Source: Campylobacteraceae bacterium (GTDB taxonomy: Bacteria > Campylobacterota > Campylobacteria > Campylobacterales > Arcobacteraceae). From it: 64,000 nucleotides of DNA. Location: contig JABXII010000007.1 of assembly GCA_013373175.1 (NCBI GenBank), positions 62,001 through 126,000 of the forward strand, read 5' to 3'. The position numbers were made by a program, and so were the translations under genes. Below the pieces are notes generated by a model. That model had not been told where the DNA came from. It worked only from the letters and a program-made list of their open reading frames with translations, and made no database searches. Positions 1-62,004 of the stretch are shown piece after piece; the stretch's first letter is position 1, and the number at the start of each line of letters is the position of its first letter.

Positions 1-97
1 TATTACATTTGAGAAGTTTTTTGAAAATAATAAAATTTATCGTATACCTATATTAAAATATTTATTTAATGATGTATTATCAGTAGGACAGTTCTAA
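1..97 (+). CDS. C-terminal tail of a McrB-like GTPase subunit (partial, left edge)
   Basis: An open frame enters from the left edge and ends at the TAA at 95-97, giving about 31 residues that finish in LSVGQF. The TAA shares its last base with the ATG of the next gene (TAATG), so the two are translationally coupled. LlaJI-type restriction systems encode a McrB-like GTPase immediately before the nuclease subunit, so I infer this is the end of that GTPase. The fragment alone carries no diagnostic motif. Confidence 0.45.
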   Translation, partial: ITFEKFFENNKIYRIPILKYLFNDVLSVGQF

Positions 98-1830
98 TGA
101 GAATTTTCATTGAAAGAGAATCTTACAATAAAAAATTGTTAGAGTCTCTTTTAGGTGATAAATTTTATACAAGTTACAATAAAGATATAGCCACTATTGA
201 CCAAGTAGGATACTTCCATTGTAAAAACAATGAATTAATCTATTTATTACCAAAAGTATTTATAAATAAAGATGGCCTAATTTTAAATAAATATACAAAA
301 GAAGAACTTAGTACAAATCCAATTTCTGAAGTTATAGATGATACAACTGAATTGAATTGGCTAAGAAGATTCCTAATTATTTTTTATAAAAGTTTAATTG
401 AATATAAAACCCGTTATAACAGTACAATATTAAGAAAAGAAGATATTCATCAATTAAATACTACTATAGGTGAATCTGAATTCTCATATCTTGATATTTC
501 ACTATCTATTATTAACTTTTATAAAAAAAACAAAAATACGATTTTATATATAACTAGGGAGCATGAATCTCAAAGACATAAATCTGTAAAATGGAATAAA
601 ACTATTAGAAAAAGTGATCCCTATTTTACAAATTCTAATGAACCAATTTACTTGAAAACAAAAAATAAGAAAAAAGAAATTGATAATGAAGAAGAATTAT
701 TAACTATTTATTATTCAGTTTTATACCATTTAAAGAAAGAGTTTTATTTTAATATAACATTTGATACTTCATATGCAAAATATAAAGGTACTTCGTTTGA
801 AAAGATATCTAAAAAAGCCCCTAAAATACTAAAGAGAATACGATATAAATACTATTCAGATATTCTAATAAAGATATATAATCTTTTACAAATATATTTT
901 TCAAAGTCTAATGCAGCCTCAATAAAGAATAAGCAAGAAGATTATATTATGGTTAAAGACTATCATTGGGTTTTTGAAGATATGATTGATAAATTATTTT
1001 CTGATAATTTAAGAGAAATAAAAACAAATAAAGGTATATCTCTTAAAAAACTAAAATCACAAAAAGATGGTAAAGAAGTTGATCATATTTTTGAGTATAA
1101 TTCTTTAATAGATTGTGATGAAAATATTTATTATATTGGAGATTCAAAATATTATAAAAGCAATAATAATTTACAAGAGAACTCTATTTATAAGCAGTTT
1201 ACATATGCTAAAAATGTTATTCAGTTTAATATTGACTTATTAAATGAAAAAAAAGTCATAAATCAAAATTTAAGATATCGTGATGAGATTACAGAAGGAT
1301 ATAATATTACTCCCAATTTTTTTATTCAAGGTGTAATAGAAGATTTTAATAATTTTGACAATCACAACTTATCACACAATACTGAAAAAAGAATCGAGCA
1401 TTCATTTCATTATAAAGATAGACTATTTGATAGAGATTCATTATATGTTTATTACTATGATATTAATTTTCTTTTTGTATTAAGCACATATACAAAAAAA
1501 GACTTTACTACTTTATATAAATTTAGAGACAATATGAAAAAAGAATTTAGAAAGAATTTTATTCAATACTTTAAAAAACAAAGAAATTTTATGTTTTATT
1601 ACAGTGACTTTGAAAATATAAATTCACTTGAAAATTTTGTTAATAAAAATTTTAAAATATTAAATGGGAAAATATATCGTTCTAAACCATTACCTAATAG
1701 ACTTATTTTTGCTATATATAAAGATGATTTAGAAATAACATCAAAAATATCTCATTCAAGAACTACAGGATTATCTATTTGTTCTTTTTCAACTGACTCA
1801 ACAATTGAACTAACAAAATTTAATTTCTAA
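97..1830 (+). CDS. LlaJI-family restriction endonuclease subunit (McrC-like)
   Basis: This 577-residue protein resembles the nuclease partner of LlaJI/McrBC-type restriction systems, in which a McrB-like GTPase translocates on DNA and the partner cleaves. A PD-(D/E)XK-type core is visible: D329 in a VDHIFEY segment followed by D349-S-K351 in IGDSKYYK, the expected D...DxK spacing. The N-terminal 300 residues are lysine- and tyrosine-rich and probably bind DNA. The start overlaps the stop of the upstream frame by one base. The cognate 5-methylcytosine methyltransferases would lie left of the window. Family assignment is from overall resemblance and is fairly secure; the recognition site cannot be told. 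Confidence 0.7.
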   Translation: MRIFIERESYNKKLLESLLGDKFYTSYNKDIATIDQVGYFHCKNNELIYLLPKVFINKDGLILNKYTKEELSTNPISEVIDDTTELNWLRRFLIIFYKSLIEYKTRYNSTILRKEDIHQLNTTIGESEFSYLDISLSIINFYKKNKNTILYITREHESQRHKSVKWNKTIRKSDPYFTNSNEPIYLKTKNKKKEIDNEEELLTIYYSVLYHLKKEFYFNITFDTSYAKYKGTSFEKISKKAPKILKRIRYKYYSDILIKIYNLLQIYFSKSNAASIKNKQEDYIMVKDYHWVFEDMIDKLFSDNLREIKTNKGISLKKLKSQKDGKEVDHIFEYNSLIDCDENIYYIGDSKYYKSNNNLQENSIYKQFTYAKNVIQFNIDLLNEKKVINQNLRYRDEITEGYNITPNFFIQGVIEDFNNFDNHNLSHNTEKRIEHSFHYKDRLFDRDSLYVYYYDINFLFVLSTYTKKDFTTLYKFRDNMKKEFRKNFIQYFKKQRNFMFYYSDFENINSLENFVNKNFKILNGKIYRSKPLPNRLIFAIYKDDLEITSKISHSRTTGLSICSFSTDSTIELTKFNF

Positions 1831-2280
1831 TTTTTCTTGATGTTTCGCATATTATTCTGTAATATATAGAGTTATAAAAAGGGTTTAATTCTTATTTTCA
1901 TTATAAAGAGATAAAAAGCTTTAATAATAAACTCCTATAGTATTTAGTACTTTCACCTTTTGTTATCTCAGTAGTCATCATCATTTTTTATTTAAACTTT
2001 ATATTTATTTTACTATGTCAAAAGGAAAAATACACTAGTCAGATAAAGTAAAGTGCACTAATTTATTAATAAAATAAATACAATAAACTCTAAATAAAAA
2101 ATTTGGTTTGACTATTATTGGTGAAGAGGAGTTTATTATGATATATAATTATAAAAAAGATATATTTACAAATAAAGATGGGAGTAAAAAAAATATTATA
2201 GAAGAATTCACTTGATAATATTCATAAAAAACTTTATAATAGTATTTAATCGATACAATTATATTAAAAAGTACTTTTAT
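1831..2280. other. Gene-poor 450-bp gap after the restriction gene
   Basis: No convincing gene is seen. The gap contains a 13-bp perfect inverted repeat, ATAATAAACTCCT at 1924-1936 and its complement at 2127-2139, bracketing about 215 bp. Just inside the right arm sits a good ribosome site (AGGAG) followed by a 25-codon frame (2138-2215, beginning MIYNYKKDIF) that ends early, which looks like the start of a truncated gene. It may be the scar of a lost mobile element or gene. Confidence 0.4.
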
Positions 2281-2508
2281 TTATTTCTCCACAATTAAAC
2301 TTTTTATATTTTCGATTTGTGAAAATTGACATTTAATATTAATGTTATAATTTGTATTTTTGATTGTGAACACTTCGAGATTTTGATCAATCATAATTTG
2401 ATCTATAGTTAATAATAGATTGTTATACGAAATAGTTTGACCTTTAAGTACCTCAATTTCATTAATTTTTTTATATATTAGGAAGTCATCAAAATTTTCA
2501 ATTGTCAT
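2281..2508 (-). CDS. Small hypothetical protein
   Basis: A 75-residue protein I do not recognise. It has alternating hydrophobic and polar residues consistent with a small beta-rich fold and no cysteines other than one near residue 60. It is the last of a leftward-reading group of small genes (2281-3327) that includes two helix-turn-helix proteins, so it may belong to the same mobile-element module. Codon and base composition match the AT-rich surroundings. No function is proposed. Confidence 0.45.
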   Translation of the reverse strand: MTIENFDDFLIYKKINEIEVLKGQTISYNNLLLTIDQIMIDQNLEVFTIKNTNYNINIKCQFSQIENIKSLIVEK

Positions 2509-2526
2509 TTTATCATTATTTAATAG

Positions 2527-2646
2527 TTAAGCATATGTTTTTTTTCTATGCAATCTTTCAGAAGTTTTGGGCTTAATTCCATCTGCTTTTAACCAAACGT
2601 AAAACTCGTTGAATAATTCTATTTTTATTTTTTCATCATAATACAT
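2527..2646 (-). CDS. Very small basic hypothetical protein (39 aa)
   Basis: A 39-residue frame starts at the ATG at 2646 behind a good AGGAAG ribosome site and ends at TAA 2527. It reads MYYDEKIKIELFNEFYVWLKAD and then a basic tail containing KPKTSERLHRKK. It lies in the same orientation as, and between, the neighbouring small genes of the helix-turn-helix group. The predicted helix followed by a basic segment is compatible with a nucleic-acid-binding peptide. It could also be the remaining N-terminus of a longer gene. I do not recognise a family. Confidence 0.4.
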   Translation of the reverse strand: MYYDEKIKIELFNEFYVWLKADGIKPKTSERLHRKKTYA

Positions 2647-2743
2647 TTTCTTCTTCCTATTCTTCTTTATGGATATTGTTGTATATATATTTATATGTGT
2701 CTAAAATTTAGACGACTTTATTTTATTTTTATACGGTTTAATT

Positions 2744-3064
2744 CTAAAATTTAGATTCTTGTCCAATTTCAAAATTAACAAAGTCATCCCACCATAATTT
2801 AGTAGTTTTTAAAAATCCACTCTCTTTATTTTTTTCAATTAATTTATTTACACTGTTATATCCAGAAGCTCTACTCAAATTAAACATTTCTGATAAAGTT
2901 TCGACTTTTCCATAGTACCAACCTGGGAATTTTGATAATGGATTATTACATAAATGATAAATTGCATTAGCAATACAATAATCATTAGTTGATAATTTAT
3001 GTTTAACTCTCGGGTGATGTTTAATTGTAGTATAGTCAGCAAGTTTATTTTCTTTTTTATTCAT
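2744..3064 (-). CDS. Winged-helix/HTH protein, phage or plasmid replication type
   Basis: The 106-residue protein has the layout of phage and plasmid helix-turn-helix proteins: an N-terminal segment (ADYTTIKHHPRVKHKLSTND) resembling the entry to such domains, then helices ending in LSEMFNLSRASGYNSVNKLI around residues 57-77, which fits a recognition helix. An aromatic stretch, FPGWYYGK, precedes it, and a WWDDF segment follows. It reads leftward 14 bp after another DNA-binding gene (3079-3327), so the pair is probably one transcript from the structured region at 3402-3477. A role in replication initiation or regulation of a mobile element is inference. Confidence 0.55.
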   Translation of the reverse strand: MNKKENKLADYTTIKHHPRVKHKLSTNDYCIANAIYHLCNNPLSKFPGWYYGKVETLSEMFNLSRASGYNSVNKLIEKNKESGFLKTTKLWWDDFVNFEIGQESKF

Positions 3065-3078
3065 TTACTTTCTTTATT

Positions 3079-3327
3079 TTAATGGGTTTTAATACATTGT
3101 TTAGTTTTTTCGATTTGATATTTCACTACATTTTGAACAGGGAAGATAATTCCTTTTTTTGCTTCAATAAATTCATGACAGTCAATTGCTGCTTTTCTTC
3201 TTTCATCAAGAGTTCTAGTGCTTATTCCTAATGCTTCAGCGCAATCTTTTGATGTAAGCATTACTCCATACTTGGAGATTAAAGCTTGAAGCATTGATGT
3301 AAAAATGATTTCAGATGAAATATTCAA
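3079..3327 (-). CDS. Small HTH DNA-binding protein
   Basis: The 82-residue protein carries a clear helix-turn-helix at about residues 24-48: MLTSKDCAEALGISTRTLDE, followed by a basic RRKAA stretch. This pattern is common in small phage and plasmid regulators (for example PrtN-like activators and excisionase-like proteins). It is the first gene of the leftward pair and its start faces the inverted-repeat structure at 3402-3477, about 75 bp away. Regulation of, or action at, that structure is plausible but unproven. The exact family is uncertain. Confidence 0.55.
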   Translation of the reverse strand: MNISSEIIFTSMLQALISKYGVMLTSKDCAEALGISTRTLDERRKAAIDCHEFIEAKKGIIFPVQNVVKYQIEKTKQCIKTH

Positions 3328-3401
3328 AACATTACCTTGTACATAAAAATGAAATTAAGTTTTGAAATTGAAAGTAAGTCGGCAAACTCATAATTCAATT
3401 G

Positions 3402-3477
3402 TAAATACTTAGAGCTCAACAATATCAGGCGATATTGTTATAAGAGCCTTATTCGCTTGCCGAGCTCTAAATATTTA
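3402..3477. repeat. Three-way-junction inverted-repeat structure
   Basis: An outer 16-bp stem with one mismatch pairs TAAATACTTAGAGCTC (3402-3417) with GAGCTCTAAATATTTA (3462-3477). Inside it is a perfect 9-bp hairpin, AACAATATC/GATATTGTT (3418-3426 with 3431-3439), and then a weak TAAG/CTTA hairpin at about 3440-3450. The result is a cruciform or cloverleaf-like fold about 76 bp long. A TCGGCAA at 3379-3385 can also pair with TTGCCGA at 3457-3463, offering an alternative fold. It lies between a DNA-binding gene and a hypothetical gene. It could be an origin or nicking site of a mobile element, or a structured RNA. Confidence 0.6.
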
Positions 3478-3526
3478 TGGATGAGAGAAGTTTAATAAAT
3501 TCTAAGATTTAAAAATAGGGGATTTT

Positions 3527-4276
3527 TTATAAATTTTTGTCTAATTCAATTTGGGGCTTTTCTGTAAGCTGTCTAAAAAAGGTTTTCTTGTCTTTTTCTT
3601 GGAGGGTTCTTTTTATATCAGAGTTGTATTTAAATACAGTAGATACAATATTCTTATTAATAGTTTTTGTGATTTGAGTGTTTGAATATTTTCCAATAAA
3701 GTGGTAATAAGCTATGTAAATATAATATTCTACTTTTTCAATTAGTTCATCATAAGATTTAACTGTATTCAAAAGTTTTGGATAAAAAACTACTTCTTTT
3801 TGTATTTTCTCATCTATATTTTTGCTGTTACCATTAATGAGTTGTGTACAAAAGAATTTAGTCATAAATGTAGGAACCCTAGGATACTGTTCTATTTCAT
3901 TTTTTAATTCATCATCAAAACCTTCTTTTCTTGTTGAAAGAAGTACTTCTTCTATATTTGTACCTGTTAGACTATTATCTAAAATTAGTTGTATAATAAT
4001 TCTGAATTCTTCAAAGGTTAGTAAAATCTTTTTTAATTCAGAGTGCTTGATTGATATAGGTTTATTAAAATATGAAATATAATCGCTCTGATAATAAAAG
4101 TTAGATTTTAAAAAGTTTGTTAAAAAATTAACTTTTATTTGATGTTCTAAGCTATCCCAATATAAATCAATAGCAACTAAATCTTTTTCATTTTGAAATA
4201 CTTCATGCTCATCTAATTCACATAATAAAAAGTCTTGTAAAATTGGCTCTATATCTTCAAACATATTACTCTCCAA
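3527..4276 (-). CDS. Hypothetical protein, 249 aa
   Basis: A 249-residue, acidic and strongly helical protein with no signal peptide or membrane segment. I recognise no family. The C-terminal part (about 170-249) is more basic and contains ITKTINKNIVSTVFKYNSD followed by RTLQEKDKKTFFRQLTEKP. It ends 200 bp after (downstream strand-wise) the structured repeat and its promoter region, shared with the divergent small gene at 4416, contains a palindromic TTGCAATATGCAA. Neighbouring phage/plasmid-like HTH genes suggest a mobile-element accessory role. Confidence 0.55.
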   Translation of the reverse strand: MESNMFEDIEPILQDFLLCELDEHEVFQNEKDLVAIDLYWDSLEHQIKVNFLTNFLKSNFYYQSDYISYFNKPISIKHSELKKILLTFEEFRIIIQLILDNSLTGTNIEEVLLSTRKEGFDDELKNEIEQYPRVPTFMTKFFCTQLINGNSKNIDEKIQKEVVFYPKLLNTVKSYDELIEKVEYYIYIAYYHFIGKYSNTQITKTINKNIVSTVFKYNSDIKRTLQEKDKKTFFRQLTEKPQIELDKNL

Positions 4277-4312
4277 ACTTTTTGTAAAAAATCATAACTT
4301 ATAATGTTTTTT

Positions 4313-4354
4313 ATTGCAATCGTCATATAGCGATATTTATGTTGCAATATGCAA
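4313..4354. promoter_or_regulatory. Candidate operator between divergent genes
   Basis: The 139-bp divergent region between 4276 and 4416 holds ATTGCAAT at 4313-4320 (itself a palindrome) and TTGCA-ATA-TGCAA at 4342-4354, a perfect 5-3-5 inverted repeat. Repetition of the TTGCAAT word about 29 bp apart in a shared promoter region fits a repressor site. The regulator is not identified; the nearby HTH proteins are candidates. Confidence 0.35.
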
Positions 4355-4415
4355 TAATTTTAAAATGACTTAGAAAAATAGTGTAAAATTGATTTAATAA
4401 ATCAAAGGGGTCAAA

Positions 4416-4679
4416 ATGCAAGAAGAAATATCACTAAAAGAAGCATCAAGTTTTATGTCAAGTTGGGTTTCAGATTATAAAAAAGAACAGAAACAAGACA
4501 AATATCAATCTATGCTAGATAAATTTAGTAAAGAAGACTTAGTGAAAAACTATGAAGAGCTATTATATGAAAAATTTATACTAGAAGATAAAATAAATTC
4601 TTTAGAAGATGAAAACAAGATCTTAAAAGAAGAGAATGATCGACTAAAAGTAAGTTTGTTAGTTTCAAATAAAGAATAA
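4416..4679 (+). CDS. Small coiled-coil protein
   Basis: An 87-residue protein preceded by an AAGGGG ribosome site. The first 30 residues include an amphipathic segment (LKEASSFMSSWVSDYKKEQ); residues about 45-82 are a heptad-patterned coiled coil containing LEDKINSLEDENKILKEEND, which would dimerise. There is no DNA-binding or membrane segment. It is followed 11 bp later by another tiny gene on the same strand, and a terminator closes the pair. Function unknown; mobile-element accessory protein is possible. Confidence 0.5.
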   Translation: MQEEISLKEASSFMSSWVSDYKKEQKQDKYQSMLDKFSKEDLVKNYEELLYEKFILEDKINSLEDENKILKEENDRLKVSLLVSNKE

Positions 4680-4690
4680 AAGGATAAAAA

Positions 4691-4828
4691 ATGATTTTAA
4701 ACATAGATATATTAAAAGAGATATCTTCTGATAAGAAAAAAGATATTGAAGAAGCAAATAGAATGCTTATTGAAGTTCAAAGTTCTGATTTGCCACAACA
4801 AGATAAAGAACAAAAACTAAAGTTTTAA
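4691..4828 (+). CDS. Very small hypothetical protein (45 aa)
   Basis: A 45-residue frame starts at the ATG at 4691 behind AAAGGAT and ends at TAA 4828. It is charged and helical (ILKEISSDKKKDIEEANRML). It lies 11 bp after the coiled-coil gene and just before a clear intrinsic terminator, so it is probably the second gene of a two-gene transcript. No family recognised. Confidence 0.4.
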   Translation: MILNIDILKEISSDKKKDIEEANRMLIEVQSSDLPQQDKEQKLKF

Positions 4829-4847
4829 AAGACATTATTAGAAATAT

Positions 4848-4873
4848 AAAAGAGATTTTTTAATATCTCTTTT
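4848..4873 (+). terminator. Rho-independent terminator
   Basis: AAAAGAGAT (4848-4856) pairs with ATCTCTTTT (4865-4873) across an 8-nt loop, and the right arm runs into TTTATTTT. It lies 19 bp after the stop of the small gene ending at 4828 and should end that transcript. Confidence 0.75.
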
Positions 4874-5323
4874 ATTTTAACCGAGATTGTTCAGAGTTTT
4901 GTATCAATAACTGATAGTTTTAAGAATTCTAAAATAGTTAATCTTACTTAGAAAAGTACAGTTTTAGTAACAATTTACTTGAATCTATAAGAGATATTCC
5001 TTATTAAACCAAGTATACACAGCTACTGCACCTACAGATATAATTCCTATTCCTGCTTTTCCCCAACCTGTCATTTTATCCCAGCTACTTTTTTTGACTT
5101 TCTTATTATATTTTATAGCTCCTATTGTAATCCATCTATTTTATTTATTATTTGGTATCTCAAAAACTATCTATAATTATTATTAAACTATTATTTTGAT
5201 AGAATAGTTATAAATTATTTAAATAAGTGATATAGTTATGCTTGAATTAATAGTTTTGTACGAAATTGTCGAGGGTTTTTTTTGTTACTATTTATACAAT
5301 ATCAAATGAGAAAATGAAACTAT
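4874..5323. other. 450-bp gap with at most one tiny membrane ORF
   Basis: The only candidate gene is a 29-codon minus-strand frame at 4985-5074 reading MTGWGKAGIGIISVGAVAVYTWF and then a short polar tail, which would be one transmembrane helix. It lacks a good ribosome site, and the frame stays open upstream of the ATG for about 20 codons without a start, so it may be a remnant. The rest is AT-rich sequence leading to the leucine-rich-repeat gene; I see no clear regulatory element. Confidence 0.35.
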
Positions 5324-6475
5324 ATGGTTTATTATTCAAGCAACAATAGTGATACTTTAAATTTAATAAACACTTTTTGTAAACAAGTAGTCTCCATGAA
5401 AGCACACATATTAAATAAAATAGATAATTCATTTAGGGAAGATGATATTTTTTTTATACCTATATATGGAGAAGAAGAATTAAGTAGTGAATGGGAATCT
5501 TTTTTAAAGAGATATGCAAAAAAATCATACAATATTGGTAAAAATACTTTCTTTTATCTGTATGGTATTTATGACCTAGAACTTGATAAAAATACTACTA
5601 TAATAAAGCAGATAGATACTATTTTAGAGTTTTTGTCTGTTCAAGTTAATGTATTCCCTCTAAAAGTGATGCCGAAGTATACGCCATTAGATAGTTTAAT
5701 TTATTATTATAAGCATACAAATATTAATCAAATTAATGATAGTTTAGTAAATAGAATCGTGTTTCTTTCTAAGCAAAAACTTATACAGAACAATGAAAAA
5801 ACAATTAATTTTACGGCTAAATTGAATGGATATAGTTCTGTAATAGATAAAATTAAATTAAGAAAAAAAAGAAAATTTTTAACTAAAGTAATAGCATCTA
5901 TAACATGTGAAAATATTATATTGAATAGAGTTAAAAATATAAATATGGACAAGGTTTTAAATAAAAGTAGAAATAATAAAACACTAAAACTACAACTTAA
6001 ATCTAATAGACTTAAAAATACTAAGTCTCTTTCAGGTTTTTCATCATTAGAAGTTCTAAATTTAACGGCAAATTCTTTTAGTGTTATAGATATGGAAAAC
6101 TTACCAACTAAAATTAAGTCACTAAATATTTCAAAAAATTATATAGAAAAAATTAAAATTGAAAAATCAAGAGTTGAAATTAAGAAATTAATTTTGTTCA
6201 ATAATAAAATTACTAATATGGACTTTTTGGATTATTTTCCTAATTTGGAATATTTGAATATTGGATTGAACCCTATTAAAAGGTTTCCAGATTCAATTAT
6301 TAAACTTAATAAATTAGAACATTTAAACATATCTTTTATTGATATTGAAATAATTCCAAGTGAAATACTAGAATTAAAACAGTTAAGAACTGTTGATATA
6401 ACAGGTTGTTTGATTTCAAATAACTGCGATGTATTAATAAAGCTTAATAAAAAAGGTGTAAAAATCATATTTTAG
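5324..6475 (+). CDS. Leucine-rich-repeat protein at the head of the candidate peptide cluster
   Basis: This 383-residue protein has an unrecognised N-terminal domain (about 1-210) and a C-terminal run of leucine-rich repeats (about 215-375), with units such as LEVLNLTANSFSVID, IKSLNISKNYIEKI, LEYLNIGLNPIKRF and LEHLNISFIDIEII. The repeats have the 21-23-residue spacing typical of cytosolic bacterial LRR proteins. No signal peptide or membrane helix is seen, so it is probably cytoplasmic. LRRs usually bind other proteins or peptides. Its stop is 18 bp before the 12-codon gene and lies only 2 bp before that gene's ribosome site, so the two are very likely co-transcribed. A role in binding the tiny peptide or its enzymes is inference. 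The start has a weak ribosome site. Confidence 0.75.
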   Translation: MVYYSSNNSDTLNLINTFCKQVVSMKAHILNKIDNSFREDDIFFIPIYGEEELSSEWESFLKRYAKKSYNIGKNTFFYLYGIYDLELDKNTTIIKQIDTILEFLSVQVNVFPLKVMPKYTPLDSLIYYYKHTNINQINDSLVNRIVFLSKQKLIQNNEKTINFTAKLNGYSSVIDKIKLRKKRKFLTKVIASITCENIILNRVKNINMDKVLNKSRNNKTLKLQLKSNRLKNTKSLSGFSSLEVLNLTANSFSVIDMENLPTKIKSLNISKNYIEKIKIEKSRVEIKKLILFNNKITNMDFLDYFPNLEYLNIGLNPIKRFPDSIIKLNKLEHLNISFIDIEIIPSEILELKQLRTVDITGCLISNNCDVLIKLNKKGVKIIF

Positions 6476-6493
6476 GAAAGGAGGGAAATTACA

Positions 6494-6532
6494 ATGTGTT
6501 TTGCAGGTTGGTATGAAACTGACGATTTTTAA
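6494..6532 (+). CDS. Candidate 12-residue precursor peptide MCFAGWYETDDF
   Basis: A 12-codon frame (ATG 6494, TAA 6530-6532) encodes MCFAGWYETDDF. It is preceded by AAGGAGGG at 6478-6485, nearly a perfect anti-16S match at 9-nt spacing and one of the strongest ribosome sites I see in the window. It sits between an LRR gene and two radical SAM/SPASM genes, the usual position of a RiPP precursor. Cys2, Trp6, Tyr7 and the acidic Asp10-Asp11-Phe12 end are plausible modification sites. There is no room for a leader peptide, and neither radical SAM protein shows an N-terminal peptide-recognition domain, which is consistent. Known precedents for such tiny precursors exist (the 7-residue MccA of microcin C). 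It could instead be a leader peptide for attenuation, or a chance frame behind a strong GA-rich stretch. Confidence 0.6.
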   Translation: MCFAGWYETDDF

Positions 6533-6541
6533 TAGTCTGCT

Positions 6542-6555
6542 TATAATAGTATAAT
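6542..6555 (+). promoter_or_regulatory. Two closely spaced TATAAT -10 elements
   Basis: TATAAT occurs at 6542-6547 and again at 6550-6555, between the peptide gene and the first radical SAM gene. In Campylobacterota the -10 hexamer is the main conserved promoter element, so a second, internal promoter for the radical SAM genes is plausible. Its transcript would begin within or just before the stem-loop at 6552-6585. Confidence 0.4.
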
Positions 6556-6585
6556 GTGTTTGCCTTATTTATGACAAACACATTA
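6552..6585 (+). promoter_or_regulatory. Stem-loop between peptide gene and radical SAM genes
   Basis: TAATGTGTTTG (6552-6562) pairs perfectly over 11 bp with CAAACACATTA (6575-6585) across a 12-nt loop. No U-tract follows (CTTAAAAAATAAACG), so it is not a standard terminator. It may stabilise the upstream message or partly attenuate. The left arm repeats the sequence at the start of the peptide gene (AATGTGTTT at 6493-6502 region), so the right arm could alternatively pair with and mask the peptide start codon. Confidence 0.6.
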
Positions 6586-6610
6586 CTTAAAAAATAAACG
6601 AAAGAGAAAA

Positions 6611-7738
6611 ATGTTTAATAAAAAGTTTTACCTTACATTAGTTCCTACTAATGAATGTGGATTTGCTTGTGAGTATTGTTATACTTCTCACAACCTAGAT
6701 GATAAGACTAGAATTAGTTTAAATGATATTTCTAAAATAATGGAGATAATTTCACAACAAAATAATAGTATTGAAATTTTATTTATAGGTGGTGAGCCTA
6801 CGATGGTAGGATATGAGTATTTTAACAAAATAATGGATACTCTTATTGATATTCAATCAAAAAACAATTTAAATCTTCAATTTACAATTCAAACAAATGG
6901 TATTCATCTTAATGAAAAATGGATTAAATTATTCCAAAAATATAAATTTAGAGTTGGTGTTTCATTTGATGGATTTAGTAGTGATATTAAAGAACATAGA
7001 CCACACTCCGATAAAATTGAAAAAAATATAAAAATATTGCAAAAATATAAAATGAGCTTTTCTATACTTTCAGTATTTAATAATGAAACTATTGACAATC
7101 TTATTGATAACTATTTACTAATGAATAAACTACAATATGCTTATAAAATATTACCTATGAATGATAATGGACATTTAGAAGAGAAATATATAATAAAATT
7201 CAATGAAGAAAATCAACAAAAAATATTAGAATTTGCAAAAAAATGGCTCTATGATACATCTTGTAATATACAAATGAAAACATTTCATTCTATGTTTTAT
7301 ACACTATTTTTAGATGAAATGCCATTATGTAATAGCTGTATTGAAAATAGAGTAAGCATAAGACCTAATGGTTCATTATTTCCATGTGGAAGACCATATG
7401 ATGATAAATATAAAATCAGTCATATAGATAATATAAAAGAATTTAACCAATTAAAAGATAATGATGGTTATAAGAATCTAATAAATCTAAAAAATGAAAA
7501 AATTAATAATTGTATAGATTGTAAGTATTTAAAAGTATGTGAAGGTGGTTGTGTTTCAAATAATATTTTAGATAACTCATATGCTGATATAAATGGTTTT
7601 TATTGTAAATATACAATAATGATGTTAGATATATTTACACCTCTAGTTGATATTGCAAAAAAGGATATAAAAAATGGCAATATAGAAAAATATAATCCTA
7701 TACTCATCAATGACTTAAAATTTAAAGGTTTAATTTAA
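6611..7738 (+). CDS. Radical SAM/SPASM domain protein 1
   Basis: A 375-residue radical SAM enzyme. The SAM-binding [4Fe-4S] motif CX3CX2C is C16-GFA-C20-EY-C23, followed by GGEP in IEILFIGGEPTMV. The C-terminus is a SPASM domain with the expected cysteines: CNSC...FPCGRP, then CIDCKYLKVCEGGC and a last Cys in FYCKY. Such proteins mature ribosomal peptides or act as sulfatase-maturase-like dehydrogenases by hydrogen abstraction. The motif begins within the first 25 residues, leaving no space for a RiPP recognition element. It follows the 12-codon gene and overlaps the second radical SAM gene by one base (TAATG). Substrate is not known; the adjacent peptide is the natural candidate. Confidence 0.85.
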   Translation: MFNKKFYLTLVPTNECGFACEYCYTSHNLDDKTRISLNDISKIMEIISQQNNSIEILFIGGEPTMVGYEYFNKIMDTLIDIQSKNNLNLQFTIQTNGIHLNEKWIKLFQKYKFRVGVSFDGFSSDIKEHRPHSDKIEKNIKILQKYKMSFSILSVFNNETIDNLIDNYLLMNKLQYAYKILPMNDNGHLEEKYIIKFNEENQQKILEFAKKWLYDTSCNIQMKTFHSMFYTLFLDEMPLCNSCIENRVSIRPNGSLFPCGRPYDDKYKISHIDNIKEFNQLKDNDGYKNLINLKNEKINNCIDCKYLKVCEGGCVSNNILDNSYADINGFYCKYTIMMLDIFTPLVDIAKKDIKNGNIEKYNPILINDLKFKGLI

Positions 7739-8712
7739 TGCAAATATATATTCTTTTAACGAATAACTGTAATCTATCATGTTCACATTGTATTAGAGAT
7801 GATAAAAGTGATAAAACATTATCAAGTACAGAATTAGACATTTTATTTAATAATGTTAATTTTGAAAACAATCATATAGTATTAACAGGTGGTGAGCCAT
7901 CATTGCATCCAGACTTCATTAATATATTAGAAAAAGCGATAAAAAAAGCCAAAAAAATAACAATTTGTACTAATGGTATAAATAATTATTATTTTGAGAA
8001 AATCAAAAATTCAAATATACACATACAGTTTTCAATAGATGGCAATAGAGAGTATCATAATAAAATCAGAGGGCTGGATAGCTTCGACAAGATTGTTGAT
8101 AACATAAAGTTAGCTGCACAGTATAATATTAGTCATAGTGTTTCAACAGTAGTTAATAAGTTAAATATTAATTCTATTGATAAAATGCTTGAAGAATTAA
8201 GTAAAAGTGTTAAAAGTGGATATATTAGATTTAATACTCAAATGAATTTTGGAAGTTCATCTAATAAAGATATTTTAAGTATAGAATCGTGGAATAATTT
8301 TGTAAGTAGTGTTCAAAATATTGAGTTTCCAATTACAATAAGAGCTAATAAATTATTTGATTTTGAAGCTGTAGAAAGTTTGAGTTGTGAAGAATTAGAT
8401 AATTTATCTAAAAATGCAGTTAAAAATTGTGGAAATTGTACAGGTAAAGTTTATATTTATCCAGATTTAAATGTTTATTCATGTACATGTTTGGATTCCT
8501 TTCCTATTGGAAACTTAATGAAAGATACTTTAGATAATATTTTAGTATCTGAAGATTCAAAAAAGTTTATTAACTATTTACCTAAATTAGAACAAACTTG
8601 TATAGATTGTAAATATTTAAAACTATGTAATGGAGGATGTATTGGAACAGCATTCAAAAAATATAAAGAATTTGGACACGGAGACCCAAGATGTCCAAAA
8701 ATTAATAAATAG
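7738..8712 (+). CDS. Radical SAM/SPASM domain protein 2
   Basis: A 324-residue radical SAM protein translationally coupled to the first one. The cluster motif is C11-NLS-C15-SH-C18, followed by LTGGEPSLHP. The C-terminal SPASM region has CGNC...YSCTC, then CIDCKYLKLCNGGC and a final Cys in DPRCPK. It shares the CIDCKYLK-CxGGC block with its neighbour, so the two probably diverged from one ancestor, but overall similarity is modest. It resembles the shorter PqqE/MftC-like peptide-modifying subgroup. Two successive modifications of one small substrate, or a modification and a redox step, is the likely division of labour. The 3' end overlaps the start of the decarboxylase-family gene. Confidence 0.85.
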   Translation: MQIYILLTNNCNLSCSHCIRDDKSDKTLSSTELDILFNNVNFENNHIVLTGGEPSLHPDFINILEKAIKKAKKITICTNGINNYYFEKIKNSNIHIQFSIDGNREYHNKIRGLDSFDKIVDNIKLAAQYNISHSVSTVVNKLNINSIDKMLEELSKSVKSGYIRFNTQMNFGSSSNKDILSIESWNNFVSSVQNIEFPITIRANKLFDFEAVESLSCEELDNLSKNAVKNCGNCTGKVYIYPDLNVYSCTCLDSFPIGNLMKDTLDNILVSEDSKKFINYLPKLEQTCIDCKYLKLCNGGCIGTAFKKYKEFGHGDPRCPKINK

Positions 8713-9793
8713 TAAGACATATAAAACACCTTGTTATTTATTTAAAAAGAATGTATTAATTAATACTCTTAATGATATTGAGCATACTATTAAAACCAAA
8801 TATAATAATATTCGTTTATCTTATTCTTATAAAACAAATAGTGATAAAGAAGTATTAAAAACTTTAAGAAAACAAAAGATATGTATAGAAGTAGTATCAA
8901 AAAAAGAGTATACAGTATCAAAAAAAATGGGCTTTAAAGATATAATATACAATGGTCCTGCAAAAAGTAAAAAAACATTTATAGATGCTTTAGAAAATAA
9001 CTATATTGTAAATATTGAAAATAAAAGAGAACTATCTTGGTTAAAATCTATTAAGTCTAAAAAGCATATTAAAATAGGTATTAGAGTAAATTTTCCATTA
9101 TCATGTTTTATTGCTAATGCAAAGAGTATAAATAGTAGATTTGGATTTAATCTGTATGAAGATTTAAAAAAAGTTCTAAAAGATTTAAAAAAATATAAAA
9201 ATATAAAAGTTGTTGGTTTACACTATCACTCAACATATATAGATAGAACACCTGAAAAGTTTAAAATAGTGACACAAGAGTTACTTAAGTTTTCAAAGAA
9301 AAATAATCTTGATTTAGACTATATAGATATTGGTGGTGGTTTTGACTGTCTTAATCATTCAAAATTTAGTTTTAATGATTATATGGATGCTATATATAGT
9401 TGTAAAGAATTTGATAAAAAACTTAATATCATTATAGAACCAGGTTATGGGTTGATAAATTCTTGTTATGATTATTTAACTAAAATAGTAGATATAAAAA
9501 AGACTCAAAAAGCTAATTTTTTTTTATGTGATGGTAGTAAATTGCATCTAAATATAAAATCAAAAGTAAACTCTTTTAATGTAGATTTTCTAAAAGAAGT
9601 AAATTCAAAAAAAATAATAGATAATTATATTGTTGGTATGTCTTGTATGGAAAGTGACAGATTACATTTAACAAATAAGAAATTAGCTCTAAAAATTAAT
9701 GATAAAGTATTATTTAAAAATTGTGGAGCATATACAAGTTCTTGGAATAGTGGTTTTATTTTAGAAAAACCTCGTTTTTACACATTAAAATGA
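8642..9793 (+). CDS. PLP-dependent decarboxylase, alanine-racemase fold (LysA/ornithine decarboxylase family)
   Basis: A fold-type III PLP enzyme of the diaminopimelate/ornithine/arginine decarboxylase-2 family, about 380 residues. Seen: the PLP-lysine motif YSYKTN (Lys codon at 8831), SRFGFN, GLHYHSTY, the phosphate-binding DIGGGF, EPGYG, and the C-terminal CMESD and NCGAYTSS in place of the usual C-E-S-x-D and G-AY motifs. It therefore looks catalytically complete. The start is ambiguous: TTG 8642 has GGAGG 5 nt upstream, while ATG 8630 gives four more residues; both lie inside the preceding gene. In context it may decarboxylate an amino acid, or the C-terminus of a small peptide-derived product. 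It is distinct from a housekeeping lysA because it is embedded in the radical SAM operon. Confidence 0.8.
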   Translation: MEQHSKNIKNLDTETQDVQKLINSKTYKTPCYLFKKNVLINTLNDIEHTIKTKYNNIRLSYSYKTNSDKEVLKTLRKQKICIEVVSKKEYTVSKKMGFKDIIYNGPAKSKKTFIDALENNYIVNIENKRELSWLKSIKSKKHIKIGIRVNFPLSCFIANAKSINSRFGFNLYEDLKKVLKDLKKYKNIKVVGLHYHSTYIDRTPEKFKIVTQELLKFSKKNNLDLDYIDIGGGFDCLNHSKFSFNDYMDAIYSCKEFDKKLNIIIEPGYGLINSCYDYLTKIVDIKKTQKANFFLCDGSKLHLNIKSKVNSFNVDFLKEVNSKKIIDNYIVGMSCMESDRLHLTNKKLALKINDKVLFKNCGAYTSSWNSGFILEKPRFYTLK

Positions 9794-10056
9794 TTACTTT
9801 TCCTATAGTTTATAAGATAGTAGTCCATAATTTTCAGCTTCAAGCTTTTACTCAAATCTCTTATATTTGGAACAAAATTAGAAAATTTTACTTACAGGCT
9901 TTATACCCTTTATATAGAGATATAATTTGTTCCAAAAAGTGTTCAATAAGTAGAATTTATAAATTCTCTCAAGCCCTTAAGATTTTTGAACAACAAGAAT
10001 CACTTTATGTAGCTTCTGTAAGTTATTTAATAAGAGAACCTGAAACTCCATATTAG
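9790..10056 (+). CDS. Uncertain small ORF at the end of the cluster
   Basis: An 88-codon frame whose ATG overlaps the decarboxylase stop (ATGA at 9790-9793), the classic arrangement for translational coupling. The product is basic and aromatic, rich in Ile, Tyr and Gln, with two cysteines in CSKKCS, but it contains no glycine at all and is unlike the surrounding proteins in composition. It could be a real small protein of the cluster or a fortuitous frame over a degraded gene. I do not recognise it. Confidence 0.3.
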   Translation: MITFPIVYKIVVHNFQLQAFTQISYIWNKIRKFYLQALYPLYRDIICSKKCSISRIYKFSQALKIFEQQESLYVASVSYLIREPETPY

Positions 10057-10475
10057 CATCTGTTTTGTACCTAATTTTATTTGTGCAATTAAATCTGTTA
10101 AATCATTTAGAATAAATTTTATAAGACTGACGCAAAATTTCCAACACTTCCTTTTTACCTCATTAAATAATATACTAAAATAAAATCTTAAATTAACTTT
10201 CCTTATTAATAAAAATTATTGAAAACATATATATAGATTTACAAAATTTTATAAAATATTACGATACAAATTACGGTGATAATTTGGGGCAAAAAGAGGT
10301 GTAAAATTGGGTATAAATTGCGGTAGAAATTTGTGACCACATTTGACAAACTCGCTTATTCTTTTTTATATTACTTTTGGAAGCTATATTATTTCTTAAA
10401 AAATACCCTTTATTTATCTTCTAAAAATGCATAATATTTTGTTACTTAATTTTGATATTTTTAAGGAAGATAATT
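10057..10475. other. 420-bp gap at the end of the accessory region
   Basis: No gene is seen. Two imperfect copies of a short element occur at about 10265-10285 (AAATTACGGTGATAATTTG) and 10315-10335 (AAATTGCGGTAGAAATTTG), each itself partly self-complementary. The sequence between has a run of G-rich bits (TTGGGGC, AAGAGGTG) unlike the AT-rich background and may be relict coding DNA. Confidence 0.35.
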
Positions 10476-10889
10476 ATGCAACAAAAAAGAAATAAGAGAA
10501 AGCCTAAAGAAGAACTTTTAGTTAGTATTAGTGATTCTATAATATTACTTTTAAACCATTTATATCCACTCTCAGAACAACTTATCCTTTTAAATAAGAC
10601 TTTACATAAGAACTGTAGTGTTTCTGAAAAAACATATTTAAAGTATTTAAAGACTAATCTTAAAGCTCACTATATAAAATATAAAAAGAATATATTCTTT
10701 GCAAATAATATGCAAGAGATGATAAGAGTTATTCTTGCTTTTAAAACATATGAAGAACAATTTGAGAATTTTAGGTTTAAAAAATTTAGAAGTGGTAATA
10801 ATGAATTCAATCTATTATTAGAAGATTACATATACTTTTTTGAAGAATATTTTGAAAAAGAAAAAGATATATGGGTAGCTATAGGGTAG
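10476..10889 (+). CDS. Hypothetical protein, 137 aa
   Basis: I place the start at ATG 10476, which has AAGGAAG 6 nt upstream; a TTG 24 bp earlier in the same frame lacks a ribosome site. The protein opens with a strongly basic tail (MQQKRNKRKPKEE), then is helical and aromatic, with a C-terminal run of Phe/Tyr/Glu (YIYFFEEYFEKEKD). No membrane helix or known motif is apparent. It is single, convergent with aroE, and marks the junction between the accessory region and core genes. Confidence 0.5.
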   Translation: MQQKRNKRKPKEELLVSISDSIILLLNHLYPLSEQLILLNKTLHKNCSVSEKTYLKYLKTNLKAHYIKYKKNIFFANNMQEMIRVILAFKTYEEQFENFRFKKFRSGNNEFNLLLEDYIYFFEEYFEKEKDIWVAIG

Positions 10890-10891
10890 CT

Positions 10892-10916
10892 AAGAAGAGA
10901 ATATTATTCTCCTCTT
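10892..10916. terminator. Bidirectional terminator between hypothetical gene and aroE
   Basis: AAGAAGAGAATA (10892-10903) can pair with TATTCTCCTCTT (10905-10916) with one mismatch; the loop opens at the centre. It sits 2 bp after the rightward gene's stop and overlaps the aroE stop codon, so it can serve both convergent genes. Confidence 0.5.
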
Positions 10917-11707
10917 AATCCCTTTCTCATCGCTTCAATTACCGAATTATAGGCTTTTGTGTTAGTGAAAAGTTCAAATGCAAGTAAGCCTTGAAATAAA
11001 AGCATATCTTCCCCATCTTTGATTTCACAATTGTTTTCACGTGCTAAAGCTAAAAATGGTGTAATTTTTCCATATACACAATCAAATGCAAAAGAAGCAT
11101 TCTTTAGTATTGGCTCTAGAATCTCTTTATCACAAGGAAGGTATTCATCTTTTAATCCTGCACTTGTAGAATTAACAACCAAGTCATAAGTTTTAGGCTC
11201 AAAATTGTCCCAAGAGTATGAAGTGATATTTTCATTTTTAAAAAAATCTAATTTTCCTTCGCTTCTATTTAAAACGGTTACATCAATACCTTTTTCTTGT
11301 AAGGCTAGAGCAATTGCTTTTGCTGTTCCACCAGCGCCTAAAAGCAATACACTTTTTATTTGACCAAAAGACTCAATTGCTTTTAAGAAACCTGGTGCAT
11401 CAGTATTATATGCTACAACTTTTCCATTTTCATTTATGTATGTATTCACAGCATGAATTTTTTTTGCGATACCTCTAACTTCATCAGCATTTTTAAAAGC
11501 AAACTCTTTATGGGGAACTGTAATATTTGCCCCTAAATAGTTCTTATCTAAAAATACTTGTTTTATAGTATCTCCATCTTCAAGATGATGTTTCTTATAA
11601 ATACCATTAAAGTTTAATTCTTTTAATCCTGCATTTTGCATTTGTGGTGATTTTGAATGTTCTACTGGGTTTCCAAAAATAACAAATGTTTTTTGTTTTT
11701 CACTCAT
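10904..11707 (-). CDS. aroE: Shikimate dehydrogenase
   Basis: A 267-residue shikimate dehydrogenase, which reduces 3-dehydroshikimate with NADPH in aromatic amino-acid synthesis. The substrate-binding start FGNPVEHSKSPQMQN, the catalytic-lysine segment NITVPHKEFAF, the NADP-binding LLGAGGTAKAI (about residue 120) and the late GEDMLLFQG are all present. An AAAGGAT ribosome site precedes the start. Length is normal. It stands alone, divergent from pgeF. Confidence 0.95.
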   Translation of the reverse strand: MSEKQKTFVIFGNPVEHSKSPQMQNAGLKELNFNGIYKKHHLEDGDTIKQVFLDKNYLGANITVPHKEFAFKNADEVRGIAKKIHAVNTYINENGKVVAYNTDAPGFLKAIESFGQIKSVLLLGAGGTAKAIALALQEKGIDVTVLNRSEGKLDFFKNENITSYSWDNFEPKTYDLVVNSTSAGLKDEYLPCDKEILEPILKNASFAFDCVYGKITPFLALARENNCEIKDGEDMLLFQGLLAFELFTNTKAYNSVIEAMRKGLRGE

Positions 11708-61911: not shown

Positions 61912-62004
61912 TTTTATAACCTTAGTTATTAGTTTAAAATTTATTATATTTATTAATTTGTGGGGATTATACTATAAAAAGTGTTAAGAGTTAGTGAATA
62001 ATTT

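Follow-up and report, generated by a model that had tools for sequence, protein, structure and literature searches.

A run of five genes occupies positions 5324-9793 of the window, the 64,000-nucleotide stretch of DNA analysed here (positions 62,001 to 126,000 of contig JABXII010000007.1, assembly GCA_013373175.1, from a bacterium of the Arcobacteraceae). The genes encode a leucine-rich repeat (LRR) protein, a peptide of 12 residues (11 in the relative described below), two radical S-adenosylmethionine (SAM) enzymes and a pyridoxal phosphate (PLP)-dependent decarboxylase-family enzyme (Table 1), and form a self-contained cassette that is almost certainly a real unit. All of these parts, including the tiny frame with its AGGAGG, were found where an earlier note, made by reading the same DNA, had placed them. 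Its description of the junctions as short or overlapping holds for the two radical SAM genes, which share one base, and for the PLP gene, whose start overlaps radical SAM gene 2, but not for the tiny frame, which is separated from radical SAM gene 1 by a gap of 78 bases with a hairpin inside. The note had also carried the cluster to 10056. The open reading frame (ORF) at 9790-10056 (88 codons) has no Pfam or NCBIfam match and no listed counterpart 3' of the PLP gene in the relative, and the end of the cassette is therefore set at 9793.

Table 1. Features of the cassette and of the element that carries it (window positions unless a locus is named)
Feature	Position	Strand	Remarks
LRR protein, 383 amino acids (aa)	5324-6475	+	C-terminal leucine-rich repeats; Pfam LRR_4 1e-12
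Shine-Dalgarno AGGAGG of the tiny frame	6479-6484	+	Nine bases ahead of ATG; present in L001 too
12-codon gene, putative substrate peptide MCFAGWYETDDF	6494-6532	+	ATG...TAA frame; counterpart L001:1868-1903
Hairpin, peptide gene to first radical SAM gene	6552-6585	+	11 uninterrupted outer pairs
Radical SAM enzyme 1, 375 aa	6611-7738	+	Pfam Radical_SAM 2e-19
Radical SAM/SPASM enzyme 2, 324 aa	7738-8712	+	Pfam Radical_SAM 4e-21, SPASM 2e-5
PLP-dependent decarboxylase-family enzyme, LysA/FslC-like	8630-9793	+	Pfam Orn_Arg_deC_N 1e-25; exact start uncertain
Variable point filled by the cassette	4881-10156		Between blocks common to related elements L042 and L098
Two DNA methylases	L025:15784-18374		Just left of the window; element cargo
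LlaJI-type restriction endonuclease, other cargo	97-1830	+	Pfam RE_LlaJI 2e-9, exceeds cut-off
Element backbone	3088-4672		82-aa frame (most of it) and 249-aa frame on -, 87-aa frame on +; 96% DNA identity to L042
Backbone gene, 145 aa, adjoining aroE	10452-10889	+	Common to L042 and L098
aroE, 3' end = integration site	10904-11707	-	120-bp copy near the integrase

One genome from each of 84,980 species was scanned with exact short peptide patterns of radical SAM enzyme 1, a procedure that distant relatives would escape since it relies on exact matches. A single relative was found, on a 7,887-bp contig of a metagenome-assembled genome (MAG) titled Sulfurimonas (L001). On this contig the four large genes are all present and are ordered as in the window. 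The proteins are 66% (LRR protein, L001:699-1853), 75% (radical SAM enzyme 1), 78% (radical SAM enzyme 2) and 74% (PLP protein) identical, with 77-82% DNA identity per gene. The similarity stops at the LRR start and at the PLP stop, falling to 47% over the 100 bases that precede the LRR gene and to 48% over the 200 bases that follow the PLP gene, close to what the shuffled linker gives (49%). Thus, no gene for a transporter, a protease or a recognition element (RRE) of ribosomally synthesized and post-translationally modified peptides (RiPPs) seems to belong to the cassette. The earlier note had seen none; the sharp edges, together with a cargo slot (see below) that holds no further recognised gene besides the cassette, strengthen that observation.

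Between its LRR and radical SAM 1 genes, L001 encodes MFAGWIEADDY behind AGGAGG where the window encodes MCFAGWYETDDF. This is the single Shine-Dalgarno-led frame of 8-30 codons in the corresponding stretch, and it is placed as in the window. Start, stop and Shine-Dalgarno sequence are kept; the sole gap in the alignment is one whole codon (Cys2 is absent in L001), and 8 of the 11 aligned residues, the starting Met included, are identical, with one F/Y exchange besides. The pattern common to the two loci reads F-A-G-W-x-E-x-D-D-aromatic-stop. A conserved, genetically encoded candidate precursor is thus present beside modifying-type enzymes at both loci, as in RiPP clusters. The earlier note had named homologous loci lacking a conserved tiny frame as evidence that would speak against it; at L001, the one homologous locus found, the frame is conserved. 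Its proposal of a leaderless peptide fits, since almost the whole peptide is conserved, but the stress that it laid on Cys2 and Tyr7 falls away, as neither is conserved in L001. Absence of Cys2 there rules out thioether chemistry at this residue. Also ruled out is read-through of the LRR stop into the peptide, the two frames agreeing in the window and differing in L001.

How far the conservation of the frame exceeds chance depends on the background chosen. A Shine-Dalgarno-led frame of 8-30 codons appeared in 152 of 5000 single-letter shuffles of window 6461-6625. In the aligned frame 30 of 36 bases agree and one of the six changes is synonymous; the probability of such identity is 2e-5 at the 0.49 of the shuffled linker, 0.0024 at the 0.60 of the real linker and 0.40 at the 0.80 of the genes, values that are rough and vary with the choice of aligner. 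Under gapped alignment, by the aligner that served for the genes, Shine-Dalgarno sequence plus frame score 42/59 (0.71) against 0.77-0.82 in the genes, and the linker itself lies above shuffle level (0.60 against 0.49, standard deviation 0.04); for these reasons the contrast between frame and background is real but moderate. The linker behind the frame, although more diverged (60%), still forms a stable hairpin with altered stem letters. The L001 counterpart (L001:1925-1956) has 14 uninterrupted outer pairs; z is -3.4 in the window and -5.7 in L001, and none of 200 shuffles was as good at either locus. It is very probable that the tiny frame is translated and functional.

In both radical SAM proteins, the CX3CX2C motif and every other listed cysteine are kept at the two loci, and the cysteines show what we take to be SPASM-type spacing. 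The earlier designation of both genes as radical SAM/SPASM is supported as to family by Pfam and NCBIfam; the Pfam SPASM model, however, matches the second enzyme alone. Both proteins score against many NCBIfam peptide-maturase models, DynA, PapB and AmcB among them, all below cut-off, as is every NCBIfam row shown for the cassette proteins. Radical SAM enzyme 1 is nearest to the anaerobic sulfatase-maturating enzyme (anSME) both in the PDB and in NCBIfam, where it reaches 142.3 of the 349.45 bits required. Unlike the anSME case, no sulfatase is found among the cassette proteins, and the catalytic Asp that follows a SPASM cysteine of anSME corresponds to Gly260. Radical SAM enzyme 2 is nearest in the PDB to SkfB and anSME. 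The closest solved structure to the PLP protein is N-citrylornithine decarboxylase (7kh2), an enzyme whose amino-acid substrate bears a large side chain. The protein shares the fold type III PLP family with FslC and LysA, and its AYSxKT-region lysine and CMxxD region align with FslC; it nonetheless remains below both curated cut-offs (133.5 of 297.9 bits for LysA, 111.9 of 500 for FslC) and reads EPG-Tyr where EPG-Arg is usual. A second PLP relative elsewhere in the genome, 28% identical, is probably LysA.

The N-terminal 200 or so residues of the LRR protein (5324-5940) look flavodoxin-like by eye only; a domain of this kind would supply electrons. No Pfam family, flavodoxin or other, matches this part at E <= 0.001, nor did a fold search with the domain return anything at E <= 0.001. 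AlphaFold confidence is low in two predictions, and hhalign against flavodoxin gives 7.6% probability. Scored with a flavodoxin profile of 15 relatives, the window domain was equalled by 10 of its 3000 shuffles and the L001 domain by 68 of 3000, while the full LRR protein was outscored by 7 of 102 natural frames (itself included in the 102). The assignment is not established by these tests and stays a guess.

The peptide is probably the substrate of the radical SAM enzymes. It would be made without a leader and perhaps in excess over the enzymes, since the hairpin lies 3' of its gene and could keep the peptide transcript in excess. Both enzymes would then modify it, most likely through cross-links at Trp6, at Glu8 and at the Asp-Asp-Phe/Tyr that ends the peptide. 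A three-residue cyclophane would be compatible with W-x-E, and the residues of E-x-x-x-[FY] are spaced like the Glu and Tyr that become linked in the biosynthesis of pyrroloquinoline quinone (PQQ). The LRR protein might act as a sensor or scaffold, or as a redox partner. The PLP enzyme would act on a free or released amino acid and not on the peptide C-terminus, because enzymes of this type need a free alpha-amino group on the decarboxylated carbon. As no exporter is recognised, the product would act inside the cell, most probably in defence.

The earlier note does not mention the mobile element, its cargo slot or the defence-type genes nearby. The cassette lies in an integrase element of about 16.6 kb inserted in the 3' end of aroE (about 56.2-72.9 kb of contig C37 in genome G000), of which window 1-10903 is the right part. 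A copy of the aroE 3' end (window 10892-11011), 120 bp long and 90% identical, is found at about G000:C37:56233-56352, near a tyrosine integrase gene (Pfam Phage_integrase 7e-23). Between the two aroE copies are two DNA methylases, the LlaJI-type endonuclease (without a PADLOC match), the backbone block and the cassette. The 249-aa backbone protein occurs in 4 of 104 genomes of the family, namely its own and G391, G241 and G452. A related element occupies the same aroE site in G391 (92% DNA identity in the integrase region, 96% in the middle backbone). In G241 a related block likewise adjoins aroE, with no integrase inside the stretch compared, and in G452 the contig ends behind the backbone block. 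The 2.3-2.7 kb beyond aroE in G428 and G429 gave no match to integrase or backbone.

At least three points vary among these elements. The one between integrase and middle backbone holds LlaJI restriction-modification (R-M) genes here. In G391 it contains type I methylase and specificity genes plus an AAA ATPase gene, in G241 Eco57I-type methylases accompanied by an SMC/AAA protein, and in G452 an HSDR_N/specificity protein together with DUF4062 and TPR-S proteins. The second, at window 4672/4692, is empty here. The third (4880/10157) is that of the cassette; at this point G391 has a frame of 242 aa and G241 one of 138 aa. Since the cassette sits at one of three points that vary among related elements, it is exchangeable cargo, and each of the four elements seen carries genes for R-M or of another defence type. 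The cassette would thus travel with the integrase element together with R-M genes.

In L001 the genes 3' of the cassette (L001:5447-7557) match JukA (E 7e-70) and then PDC-M40B (E 5e-67) in PADLOC. JukA is described as sensing early proteins of jumbo phages (PMC13282480). With both loci adjoining defence-type genes, a function in phage defence is the leading guess for the cassette, albeit a tentative one with somewhat less than even chances, and the five-gene set is perhaps part of a new kind of phage defence. A fuller scheme, in which the two radical SAM enzymes convert the leaderless 11-12-residue peptide into an effector or decoy that works inside the cell, the LRR protein being the sensor, is more doubtful still. 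PADLOC does not recognise the cassette as a set. It gives pVip-type matches for the two radical SAM proteins only (E 1e-16 and 4e-18) and none for the LRR and PLP proteins. The prokaryotic viperins (pVip) are radical SAM proteins of phage defence; the match is confined to the radical SAM part, and the cassette has SPASM-type cysteines and a peptide gene in addition.

On balance we favour, with some reserve, the explanation that a leaderless ribosomal peptide is modified by the radical SAM enzymes and carried as defence-type cargo. Several points weigh against it. Only two loci are known, and L001 is a 7.9-kb MAG contig that could be misbinned, so that its label may be wrong. With two loci and one synonymous change in six, selection on the peptide and selection on the RNA are inseparable. 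The PADLOC likeness of the radical SAM proteins is generic and viperin-type, islands gather genes of other kinds too, and the 242-aa and 138-aa frames that occupy the slot in related elements have no Pfam or PADLOC match at E <= 0.001. Finally, the cassette is rare, since radical SAM enzyme 1 returned its own genome only among 397 genomes of the class (E <= 1e-20) and 398 of the order (E <= 1e-30), and no match in 44 genomes of another family (E <= 1e-30; a set without a positive control).

The uncertainty between peptide and RNA bears on the idea that the tiny frame encodes a leader peptide with a regulatory role, whose translation, together with the hairpin, would set radical SAM expression while the enzymes act elsewhere (their target being the LRR protein, some small molecule or a component of a phage). 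The tiny frame does stand directly before the enzyme genes at both loci, with a stable hairpin between, and the TTTATT behind the L001 hairpin resembles a weak terminator. There is, however, no T-run behind the hairpin in the window, the stretch of Shine-Dalgarno sequence plus frame folds in an ordinary manner (z -1.5 and -0.7) and Rfam gave no match up to E 1 at window 6400-6700. Moreover, attenuator peptides contain a run of one amino acid, which this peptide lacks, and the conservation reaches its acidic-aromatic C-terminus. We regard regulation of this sort as improbable. Marginally less probable still is that the peptide is exported as an antibiotic or signal, the product of a minimal cluster which relies on a transporter and protease of the host and whose location in an island is incidental. 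In such clusters a small peptide gene usually lies next to the genes of radical SAM/SPASM enzymes, and the sub-threshold matches to DynA, PapB and AmcB agree with it; against this, no transporter, protease or leader is recognised in the cassette at either locus, and both loci adjoin defence-type genes. That the frame is no gene at all, but a conserved untranslated RNA open by chance, is very improbable: its 30/36 identity does not exceed that of the surrounding genes and the linker too lies above shuffle level, yet Shine-Dalgarno sequence, start, stop and frame are kept, the gap is a whole codon and Phe is exchanged for Tyr.

If the favoured explanation, a modified leaderless peptide, is correct, the cassette would work in the manner of a radical SAM RiPP cluster stripped down to the core. 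In common with the radical SAM/SPASM peptide systems (PQQ, mycofactocin, the cyclophane triceptides, dynobactin), it has SPASM-type cysteines, an adjoining small peptide gene, and aromatic and acidic residues as possible cross-link sites. It differs from them in the 11-12 residues of its peptide, in its LRR and PLP decarboxylase proteins and in its residence in an R-M-carrying element; in addition, neither a leader joined to the core nor a gene for an RRE, protease or exporter is recognised in cassette or slot. Leaderless RiPPs are known, so that the lack of these features makes membership of this class less likely and does not end it. Biarylitides arise from five-residue precursors encoded by 18 bp that evade automatic detection (PMC13417212). 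The likeness lies in a tiny precursor gene that escapes such detection; biarylitides, however, are cross-linked by a cytochrome P450, and no P450 is found among the cassette proteins. Given these five-residue precursors, the present peptide is not the shortest, and the earlier note's phrase "one of the shortest precursors" can stand only with a qualifier. Were the explanation to hold, paired radical SAM enzymes would have as their substrate the product of a gene only 11-12 codons long, which gene callers overlook, with no leader, RRE, protease or exporter involved, and peptide modification would be tied to mobile phage-defence cargo. As the cassette is small with sharp borders, both ideas can be tested by cloning its five genes.

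Other searches returned remote relatives at most. The PLP protein has matches at E <= 1e-20 in 25 of 104 genomes of its own family, its own included, the others being at most 29% identical. In 398 genomes of the order the peptide pattern, which demanded one codon between ATG and Phe and would miss the L001 form, matched its own locus and, by chance, a site antisense in a primase-like gene. Plasmids gave nothing for radical SAM enzyme 1 (1e-20), the LRR protein (1e-6) or the PLP protein (1e-20), and one match for radical SAM enzyme 2, 26% identical and without related neighbours in the annotation. Among phages there were eight remote matches at 18-23% identity, three annotated as sulfatase maturase. 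Viral contigs held one remote locus for radical SAM enzyme 1, five for enzyme 2 (L020 and L021, which were examined, contain no such cassette) and none for the PLP protein. No paper joining leucine-rich repeat, radical SAM, precursor peptide and SPASM was found in the library searched, and literature listings consisting of titles and abstract starts showed no such cassette. The STM4011-4015 cluster combines two radical SAM genes with an LRR gene; none of five literature records listed names STM4015.

The core of the peptide, FAGW.E.DD[FY], resembles a segment of the phage terminase large subunit, FAGWWEFDDY at L006:1712-1741 and FAAWWEFSDY in a relative. The strict pattern had one match in viral contigs, in a terminase. 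A looser pattern matched 16 loci with 11 distinct sequences, two of them (L006 and L081) terminases by PHROG, the PHROG check covering 7 of the 15 loci other than L006; L089 looks like a terminase by eye, PHROG giving no match. PAPS reductase and DNA polymerase were among the other families hit. By our own estimate about 20 matches are expected by chance, and since the count is near this figure, the idea that the peptide might mimic a terminase segment is a lead only.

At the variable point that is empty in the window (4672/4692), G391 and G241 carry a gene for a zeta-toxin-like kinase and then metallophosphoesterase genes. In each of these stretches (L042:12024-14412 and L098:10144-12299), PADLOC gives only a PDC-S10 match to one protein, and the genes may represent an undescribed cargo system.

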